Of a DNA stretch of 64,000 bases, positions 29,903-44,077 are shown in pieces. The translations under genes and the position numbers were made by a program. The notes under the pieces are model-generated. The model had not been told where the DNA came from. It worked only from the letters and a program-made list of their open reading frames with translations, and ran no database searches. Source of the stretch: Terasakiispira papahanaumokuakeensis (GTDB lineage: Bacteria; Pseudomonadota; Gammaproteobacteria; Pseudomonadales; Halomonadaceae); contig NZ_MDTQ01000001.1 in assembly GCF_001709345.1 (NCBI RefSeq), forward strand, positions 2,080,584-2,144,583, given 5' to 3'. How positions within the stretch are numbered: position 1 is the first letter of the stretch; each line of letters opens with the position of its first letter.

Positions 29903-29930
29903 AAAAAACGCCCCTGCGGGGGCGTTTTTG
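29903..29930. terminator. terminator between the YccA-like gene and tusD
   Basis: ACGCCCC, TGCG loop, GGGGCGT with A-run before and T-run after. It lies 22 bases before the tusD start. Confidence 0.85.
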
Positions 29931-31171: not shown

Positions 31172-31495
31172 ATGACCACACAGCCGACACCTCATCTCGA
31201 CCCCGAAGGCCACCTCCTTCACCTCGAAGACTGGTCACCCGAAGTGGCCCAATGGCTTGCATCCGAGAGTGGGATTACCCTCACACAAGCCCATTGGGAA
31301 ATCATTCAAACGCTACGGGACTTTTATCAACGTTATGATATGGCACCCGCTATGCGACCTTTGACCAAAGCGATCAAAGCACAACATGGCCCAGACAAGG
31401 CTCGCAGCATTTATCTAATGCAGCTATTTGGCGAAAGTCCCGCACGAATGGCAGCTAAAATTGCCGGCCTTCCCAAACCGGATAATTGCTTATAA
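31172..31495 (+). CDS. tusE: TusE/DsrC-family sulfur carrier
   Basis: 107 aa. Contains HWEIIQTLRDFYQRYDMAPAMRPLTK and ends PKPDNCL, where the penultimate Cys is the persulfide carrier that delivers sulfur to MnmA. Only this Cys of the DsrC pair is present, which marks it as TusE rather than a sulfite-reductase DsrC. ATG at 31172; a TTG just before it is in frame but redundant. Confidence 0.92.
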   Translation: MTTQPTPHLDPEGHLLHLEDWSPEVAQWLASESGITLTQAHWEIIQTLRDFYQRYDMAPAMRPLTKAIKAQHGPDKARSIYLMQLFGESPARMAAKIAGLPKPDNCL

Positions 31496-31647
31496 CGGCT
31501 CAACATCCAGAGTAAAAAACCACCACGCCTCAATATGAAATCGCCAAGATTTCAGTTCATTGAACTTTATCCGCTTCATCAGTCCAATGAGGTTATGCAA
31601 GCGCCAAGCGCTTGAAGCAAACACCATGGTTAAAATCAGGAGTGATG

Positions 31648-32663
31648 ATGACCACACAAAGACAGCGCATCGTACTGGCCCAAAGACCACAAGGCACACA
31701 GGCCCAGAGCATTTCCGCCTGGAAACTCAAGACATTCCCGCATTATCGCCGGGGCAGATTAGAGTCAAAAACCAGTTCCTCTCGCTTGATCCTTATATGA
31801 GAGGGCGCATGAGCGATGCCCCCTCTTACGCCGCACCGGTTGAAATCGGCGAAGTCATGGTGGGCGGCACTGTCGGCCTTGTTGAGGAAAGCCAATCGAG
31901 CCACTTTAAAGCAGGCGATCAAGTGGTCACTTTTGGCGGCTGGCAAAGTCACAGCGTGGTACCAGAACAGATGGCGCAACGCCTTCCCCCGGCGTTAACA
32001 CAACCGTCCCTGGCCCTCAGTTCCCTGGGTATGCCCGGCTTTACCGCTTATATGGGGCTGACCGATATCGGTCAGCCCCAACCAGGAGAAACCATCGTCG
32101 TCGCCGCAGCCAGTGGCCCCGTCGGATCAGTAGTCGGTCAAGTTGCCAAACTTAAAGGCTGTCGGGTCGTCGGCATTGCAGGTGGTGAGGCTAAATGTCG
32201 ATATGTTCAAGATGTGCTAGGTTTTGACGCCTGTCTTGACCACAAAATGCCAGACCTAGCAGGACGCTTATCACGCCATTGCCCTGATGGTATTGATATT
32301 TACTTTGAAAATGTCGGCGGTCGAGTGTTCGATGCGGTGTTGCCATTATTGAATCCCAAAGCACGTATTCCACTCTGCGGCTTAGTGTCACAATATAATC
32401 AATCGGCACTCCCAAAAGGCCCAGACCGTATGGGCCAATTAATGGGGCAACTTCTAGTGAAACGGGTAAAAGTACAAGGCTTTATCATTTTCGATGATTA
32501 TGGCCACCGCTATGGCGAATTTCTGGACAAAATGCTGCCCTGGGTACAAGAAGGTCGAATCCAAATGCGTGAAGATCATGTACAAGGGCTCGCCCAAGCC
32601 CCCGAAGCCTTCATCGGCATGCTCTCAGGACAAAATTTTGGCAAATTAATCGTCGATCTATAA
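31648..32663 (+). pseudogene. frameshifted NADP-dependent oxidoreductase (CurA/YncB-type MDR)
   Basis: Intact relatives are medium-chain reductases of about 345 aa. Here AGGAG (31638-31642) and ATG at 31648 start MTTQRQRIVLAQRPQGTQ in one frame, while the rest (PEHFRLETQDIPALSPGQIRV…NFGKLIVDL) continues in another. One extra C in the C-run at 31703-31705 would restore TQAPEHFRLE, as in the family. The remainder is intact: LSLDPYMRGRMSD, cofactor loop AASGPVGSVVGQ and GFIIFDDYGHRYGEF. A non-native N-terminus starting at 31626 in the second frame is possible, but lacks the ribosome binding site. A sequencing error is also possible. Confidence 0.75.
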
Positions 32664-32736
32664 ATCCTGGCGCAAATGCAGGGCTCAACCTGCTTTGAGA
32701 TCAAGAAGCGTAAAAGAAGTATTGAGTAAAATCATG

Positions 32737-32765
32737 GCGTCCTCTGCGTATAATCCAGAGGACGC
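32737..32765 (+). promoter_or_regulatory. inverted repeat enclosing a TATAAT before the DAHP synthase gene
   Basis: A perfect 10-bp inverted repeat (32737-32746 with 32756-32765) brackets 9 bases that contain TATAAT (32749-32754), about 70 bases ahead of the gene. It could be an operator over the -10, or an RNA hairpin ending the upstream transcript (followed by ATTGATTTT). It does not resemble the TyrR box TGTAAA-N6-TTTACA. No -35 at normal spacing is seen. Confidence 0.5.
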
Positions 32766-32836
32766 ATTGATTTTGCGTGAATTTCTTGTCCTAATGGAAG
32801 TACCTGAAAGATTTGGATCAACGCACAGGACTCCCC

Positions 32837-33943
32837 ATGACAGATAACAAGCTGGTCGATAATCTCAACGTCATTTCACAAGACCTGCTGATTACCCCTG
32901 ACCGCCTTAAAGACAAGATTCCTCTCACCGCCAACGCTCAGCAATCAGTGATGGAAGGCCGCCAAACGATTCAACGGATTTTGGATCGGGAAGACCCTCG
33001 CTTGTTTGTTGTCATTGGCCCTTGTTCTATCCACGATGCCAAAGCCGCCAAAGACTATGCGGAACGCCTCAAGGCATTGGCAGAAGAAGTCAAAGATACG
33101 CTATACATTGTCATGCGGGTCTATTTTGAGAAACCCCGTACAACGGTCGGCTGGAAAGGCTTAATCAACGACCCTTATTTGGATGACTCCTTTGAAATTG
33201 AAGAAGGTCTCCAAATCGGCCGACAGCTCTTGGTTGATCTCGCCGATATGGGGCTACCGCTGGCAACTGAAGCATTAGACCCGATTTCTCCACAGTATAT
33301 GCAAGACTGTATTGCTTGGTCTGCCATTGGCGCCCGCACCACAGAGTCCCAGACTCACCGTGAAATGGCCAGTGGTTTGTCATGCCCAGTAGGCTTTAAA
33401 AACGGTACCGATGGCAGCCTGGATGTAGCAATCAACGCGCTCCAATCGGTCGCCCACTCGCATAACTTCCTAGGGATCAATAATGAGGGGCAGGTGGCGA
33501 TTATCCGCACCAAAGGCAATGCTTACGGCCATGTTGTATTACGGGGAGGCAATGGCAAGCCCAACTATGACTCGGTGAGCGTGGCCCTGTGCGAAAAAGA
33601 CCTTCACAAAGCCAACACCTGCAATAACATCATGATTGACTGCAGCCATGCGAACTCAAACAAAGACCCAGGCCTACAGCCACTTGTCCTCGACAATATT
33701 ACCCACCAAATTAACGAGGGCAACCTCTCCATAGTGGGAATGATGATCGAATCCAATATCGGCTGGGGTAACCAGAAAGTACCCGAAGATAAAAGTCAGC
33801 TCAAATATGGCGTCTCGATCACAGATGCCTGTATTGATTGGCCCACGACAGAAGAAAGCCTGAGAAAAATGGCCAACAGTCTCCGTGACAAGCTGCCTGA
33901 GCGGATGAACCAAGCCAAACAAACCTGTTTACCAAAAGCGTAA
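32837..33943 (+). CDS. 3-deoxy-7-phosphoheptulonate (DAHP) synthase, class I
   Basis: 368 aa. Condenses PEP and erythrose 4-phosphate, the first step of aromatic amino acid synthesis. Signature residues are in VVIGPCSIHDAKAAKDYA, MRVYFEKPRTTVGWKGLI, GARTTESQTHREMASGLS, PVGFKNGTDG and IDCSHANSNKDP (metal ligand). It is an AroF/AroG/AroH-type enzyme. I cannot tell which amino acid inhibits it. AGGA precedes the ATG by 6 nt. Confidence 0.93.
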   Translation: MTDNKLVDNLNVISQDLLITPDRLKDKIPLTANAQQSVMEGRQTIQRILDREDPRLFVVIGPCSIHDAKAAKDYAERLKALAEEVKDTLYIVMRVYFEKPRTTVGWKGLINDPYLDDSFEIEEGLQIGRQLLVDLADMGLPLATEALDPISPQYMQDCIAWSAIGARTTESQTHREMASGLSCPVGFKNGTDGSLDVAINALQSVAHSHNFLGINNEGQVAIIRTKGNAYGHVVLRGGNGKPNYDSVSVALCEKDLHKANTCNNIMIDCSHANSNKDPGLQPLVLDNITHQINEGNLSIVGMMIESNIGWGNQKVPEDKSQLKYGVSITDACIDWPTTEESLRKMANSLRDKLPERMNQAKQTCLPKA

Positions 33944-44021: not shown

Positions 44022-44031
44022 CCACAACATG

Positions 44032-44076
44032 CTGATTAACCCTTCGGGGGCCCCCTTCCCCGAGAGGTTAATCAGC
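44032..44076. terminator. large inverted repeat between convergent genes
   Basis: GCTGATTAACC (44032-44042) pairs with GGTTAATCAGC (44066-44076). Inside, after two mismatches, TCGGGG pairs with CCCCGA. There is no T-run. It ends at the gspN stop region and probably acts for both genes. Confidence 0.55.
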
Positions 44077-44077
44077 A

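Follow-up and report, generated by a model that had tools for sequence, protein, structure and literature searches.

A hairpin with TATAAT in its loop before the DAHP synthase gene of Terasakiispira papahanaumokuakeensis, probably a transcript-end element of the upstream curA-like gene

In trp-type operators, a palindrome overlaps the -10 element. The binding site of another aromatic regulator, the TyrR box, follows the consensus TGTAAA-N6-TTTACA. Canonical L-shaped intrinsic terminators combine a stable G+C-rich stem-loop, lying downstream of a gene and on the transcribed strand, with an uninterrupted U-rich tract directly following the stem. I-shaped hairpins, which have no U-trail, have been described as weak or partial terminators of debated function (PMC5335608), and in a methanotroph they are reported to be the type of hairpin that prevails (PMC12403871).

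The present locus is an inverted repeat between a curcumin-reductase-like (curA-like) gene and a type I DAHP synthase gene, within a 64,000-nt stretch (the window; 49% G+C) of a 4.05-Mb genome assembled in 2 contigs. Like the trp-type operators, it has a -10-like hexamer at the centre of a palindrome, upstream of a gene for aromatic biosynthesis; unlike them, it does not recur at other genes, is not conserved among the loci compared, and has a poor -35. With L-shaped terminators it shares a G+C-rich stem after a stop codon and an A-rich left flank able to pair with a T-rich right flank, but its T-tract is interrupted (ATTGATTTT), its loop spans 9 nt, and its terminator score is far below those of the positive-scoring terminators in the window. 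With the I-shaped terminators (PMC5335608, PMC12403871), it shares a strong hairpin after a gene and little U-trail, whereas those hairpins are known there as common in GC-rich genomes, and here 6 of the 9 bases after the core stem are T. The hairpin is probably the transcript end of the curA-like gene, not a switch of the DAHP synthase gene. Confidence in this assignment is fairly high, though slightly reduced because the position of the hairpin between stop and start does not decide the matter and because the link to the curA-like gene comes from one genome.

The hairpin and its gene setting

On the + strand, the genes follow in the order yccA-like, tusD, tusC, tusB, tusE, curA-like gene, hairpin and DAHP synthase gene, the last having its best named matches in Halomonas and Billgrantia (74-77%). 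The start codon of the curA-like gene is unsettled, its frame being open from TTG 31560, and its stop codon lies at 32661-32663. The features are as follows:

31623..32663, + strand: curA-like (curcumin-reductase-like) oxidoreductase gene, its message probably ended by the hairpin (NF058644)
32728..32774, + strand: complete hairpin, its 19-nt arms mismatched at 2 positions and enclosing a 9-nt loop (repeat search, RNA fold, shuffles)
32737..32746, + strand: left core arm GCGTCCTCTG (sequence)
32747..32755, + strand: loop CGTATAATC containing TATAAT at 32749-32754 (sequence)
32756..32765, + strand: right core arm CAGAGGACGC (sequence)
32766..32774, + strand: ATTGATTTT, a T-rich but interrupted stretch that follows the core stem (terminator scoring, nT 1.59)
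32767..32795, + strand: possible promoter TTGATT-N17-CCTAAT with a weak -10, ending 41 nt before the ATG (inferred; position compared with relatives)
32837..33943, + strand: type I DAHP synthase gene, ATG 32837 (TIGR00034 aroFGH, E 3.1e-153; PF00793)

The two core arms are perfect complements around the 9-base loop, confirming the ten-base arms and nine-base TATAAT loop of the original prediction at 32737-32765. That description had missed the outer extension: beyond two mismatched bases, AAAATCA (32728-32734) faces TGATTTT (32768-32774), lengthening the arms to 19 nt with 2 mismatches and 89% complementarity. Arms of 19 nt (at most 2 mismatches, loop 3-12) occur twice in the window, compared with none in 20 dinucleotide shuffles of it, and perfect 10-bp arms occur 8 times, compared with 0-3 in each of 20 such shuffles. 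The RNA of 32722-32790 folds at -31.4 kcal/mol, compared with a mean of -12.4 for shuffled sequences (z -7.2), with a core stem energy of -18.1 kcal/mol. The inverted repeat is real and beyond chance.

Other hairpins appear in the window. The second one with 19-nt arms (2 mismatches), at 44030-44077, occupies a convergent gap and has no clean T-tract on the + side. A perfect inverted repeat, TGGGGCTGACCGATATCGGTCAGCCCCA (32053-32080), lies within the curA-like coding sequence and is one of only two hairpins with perfect 10-bp arms that the census below counts in 364 kb of coding sequence. A strong two-way terminator-like hairpin extends over 29904-29929, separating yccA from the tus genes; the tusD frame as listed (GTG start, 29892) begins ahead of it, and the true tusD start is therefore probably later.

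Hairpin placement in the genome and the probable transcript end

Hairpins with perfect 10-bp arms and loops of 3-12 nt were counted across 464 kb, comprising the window and 20 stretches of 20 kb. The census yields 45 hairpins. Convergent gaps, totalling 14.5 kb, hold 16 of them (1.1/kb), same-direction gaps (56.8 kb) hold 25 (0.44/kb), divergent gaps (18.1 kb) hold a single one (0.055/kb) and the 364 kb of coding sequence hold 2, with 1 more unclassified at the window edge. Gap lengths and classes are approximate, because tusD, tusB and tusE of the window escaped the gene finder. The difference between convergent and divergent gaps has a p value of 2e-5. Being rich in convergent and poor in divergent gaps, these hairpins as a class mark transcript ends here, and the comparison of the two counts within one genome serves as a simple test that separates transcript-end hairpins from operators. 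The original prediction had offered either an operator hiding the -10 or a transcript-ending hairpin; this placement favours the latter, albeit with a poor U-tract, and the former gains no support from recurrence or conservation (below).

For 20 of the 25 same-direction hairpins the distance to the upstream stop is no more than 100 nt, and for 21 of the 25 it is shorter than the distance to the next start. The hairpin in the DAHP gap lies 73 nt after the curA-like stop and 71 nt before ATG 32837; with TTG 32813 taken as the start, it is among the 4 of 25 that are nearer the start. Its own position is thus undecisive.

On the transcribed strand, a stable G+C-rich stem-loop follows the curA-like gene as in a canonical intrinsic terminator, while the tract directly after the stem is not an uninterrupted U-rich one. 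The d'Aubenton-type score is -27.7, ranking 37th of 42 gap hairpins, whereas the positive-scoring terminators of the window range from +1.9 to +38.8. Weak-tailed hairpins are thus a common type in this genome, 18 of the 42 having scores below zero. The hairpin is missing from the output of the terminator scan, its 9-nt loop exceeding the limit of 8; at this place the scan reported only a 5-pair stem at 32762-32778. A strong gene-end hairpin with no good U-trail corresponds to the I-shaped, transcript-end type. Given the poor U-tract, its probable role in the curA-like message is partial termination or stabilisation of the mRNA end.

In the proposed sequence of events, RNA polymerase leaving the curA-like gene would copy 32728-32774, and the RNA would fold into a 10-bp G+C-rich stem with an A-U extension, at which transcription would pause and partly stop. 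Alternatively, the hairpin may shield the 3' end of a message terminated in some other way. Transcription of the DAHP synthase gene would begin at its own promoter, with the -35 TTGATT overlapping the right outer arm and the -10 about 41 nt before the ATG. Beyond annotation, the importance of the hairpin is small.

The curA-like genes found elsewhere (53-60% identity; 8 loci, L116-L123) have different neighbour genes. A hairpin lies within 40 nt of the curA-like stop in four of them (L116, L119, L122 and L123), with a clean T-tract in L119, and in none of the other four. These loci neither prove nor refute that the hairpin ends the curA-like transcript.

Related loci, possible attenuation and possible remnant origin

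The gap DNA matches only its own genome among the 58 searched. Before the DAHP synthase genes of 121 relatives (250-nt upstream stretches; the set may count one species twice), the palindrome is found in none, giving no support to an element conserved before these genes. A hairpin of any sequence with perfect 10-bp arms is present in three of these stretches (L064, L076, L091), none of the same sequence. In genera g3, g5 and g24, tusE, identified by its C-terminal residues and not by family search, directly precedes the DAHP synthase gene at a distance of 79-204 nt in 14 of 14 loci, and in none of these 14, where no curA-like gene intervenes, is there a hairpin with perfect 10-bp arms in the upstream stretch. 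Comparison of the loci suggests that the hairpin is tied to the presence of the curA-like gene, one genome having both. At 31495-32837, the window itself has the curA-like gene between tusE and the DAHP synthase gene, where these three genera have none.

The same pattern bears on an origin as a functionless remnant or insertion scar that arrived with the curA-like gene, since related loci with no curA-like gene there also have no hairpin and the genus is represented by one genome. The perfect 10-bp arms and the 7-bp outer pair nevertheless suggest upkeep, and the gap has no other copy in the genome, which makes this origin highly improbable. A second copy of the DNA from stop to start was sought across the genome and not found; with a single genomic location, a repeated element is ruled out.

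Transcription starting upstream could also make the hairpin a conditional terminator in a leader of the DAHP synthase gene. In its favour, the fold of the entire gap is strong (-63.8 kcal/mol, z -4.8) and includes long-range pairing up to the bases directly preceding the ATG. Against it stand the poor U-tract, the lack of conservation in relatives and the lack of any Rfam match over the gathering score at the hairpin, and the one small frame on which a leader peptide was judged, from ATG 32734 (MASSAYNPEDALILREFLVLMEVPERFGSTHRTPHDR), contains one Tyr, two Phe and no Trp, with no run of such residues. Attenuation is very unlikely on these grounds. Over the gathering score, the only Rfam matches in the window are three tRNAs, and a known RNA family for the hairpin is thereby unsupported.

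The TATAAT loop, the possible operator and the putative promoter

A repressor dimer bound to the palindrome over the -10 TATAAT would block RNA polymerase at the DAHP synthase promoter. The main support for such an operator is the hexamer itself, a perfect -10 at the palindrome centre whose sigma-70-like score (9.67) is the highest in the gap; the hairpin also lies equally near to the DAHP synthase start and to the curA-like stop. The hexamer is paired with a poor -35, however: GTAAAA lies at 17 bp and TTGAGT 21 bp away, no real -35 is present at 16-18 bp, and a simple promoter scan of the gap finds nothing. In relatives, promoter-like sites lie closer to the gene than TATAAT does, the palindrome is absent before the gene in all 121, and only 1 of the 45 hairpins of this kind is in a divergent gap. 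Together these points leave the operator unlikely.

The search for further copies points the same way. The whole palindrome occurs once in the 4.05-Mb genome. With up to 3 mismatches it occurs 8 times, itself included, compared with 12 for a reversed control, the 7 others lying in open frames of 314-766 codons. A single arm has 4 other copies, all within open frames of 407-868 codons, compared with 3 matches for its reversed control. Copies of the arm before other genes, to which the original prediction had looked as the mark of an operator, are therefore not what the genome contains. There is no sign of a regulon, because the palindrome is unique, its near-copies stay at the control level, and it is absent before the 121 related DAHP genes; neither recurrence before co-regulated genes nor retention in orthologs is found. 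A TyrR box is likewise ruled out, as the original prediction had stated: 32664-32836 holds no match to the consensus with up to 3 mismatches. The nearest such match, at 32863, is inside coding sequence, and the window total is 16, compared with a shuffle mean of 25.

An operator or attenuator specific to this lineage, gained with the curA-like gene and linking DAHP synthase to some regulator through cover of the TATAAT or a conditional stop, is quite unlikely.

At the intergenic density of TATAAT, 0.18 per kb per strand, the loops of the 42 gap hairpins, with 320 positions in all, should hold about 0.06 copies on each strand, and the DAHP-gap hairpin is the only one of the 42 with TATAAT or ATTATA in its loop. 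This is mildly unusual, and is probably a coincidence. A sigma-70-like score of at least 9.67 is reached by 7.8% of 64 convergent-gap, 6.3% of 189 upstream and 1.9% of 257 coding stretches; because convergent-gap and coding stretches also reach it, the score is poor at singling out promoters. The case shows that finding a -10-like hexamer within the loop of a hairpin is weak evidence for an operator.

The position of promoter-like sites in relatives would place the putative DAHP synthase promoter downstream of the hairpin core. In g3, the nearest genus, TACAAT ends 44-47 nt before the ATG in 7 of 7 orthologs, an eighth genome (G175, 77% complete) having yielded only a distant paralog. Among 34 relatives (L004-L038), 20 carry TTGATT-N18-NATAGT ending 37-60 nt before the ATG. 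In the window, TATAAT ends 82 nt before the ATG, and the site closest to the position in relatives is TTGATT-N17-CCTAAT, which ends 41 nt before it; as a -10, CCTAAT is without the usual TA and has a sigma-70-like score of 7.84.

In 28 of the same 34 relatives, a divergent frame within 1.4 kb upstream encodes an rpoE-like N-terminus, the identity having been verified on one protein (TIGR02939, E 2.7e-91). Many relatives, L013 and similar loci, share a block like AGTGTTCCTGTTT...CATCAAG that lies no more than about 200 nt ahead of the DAHP synthase ATG, between this gene and the divergent rpoE-like gene. On the other strand, its GTTCC part resembles a sigma-E -35.
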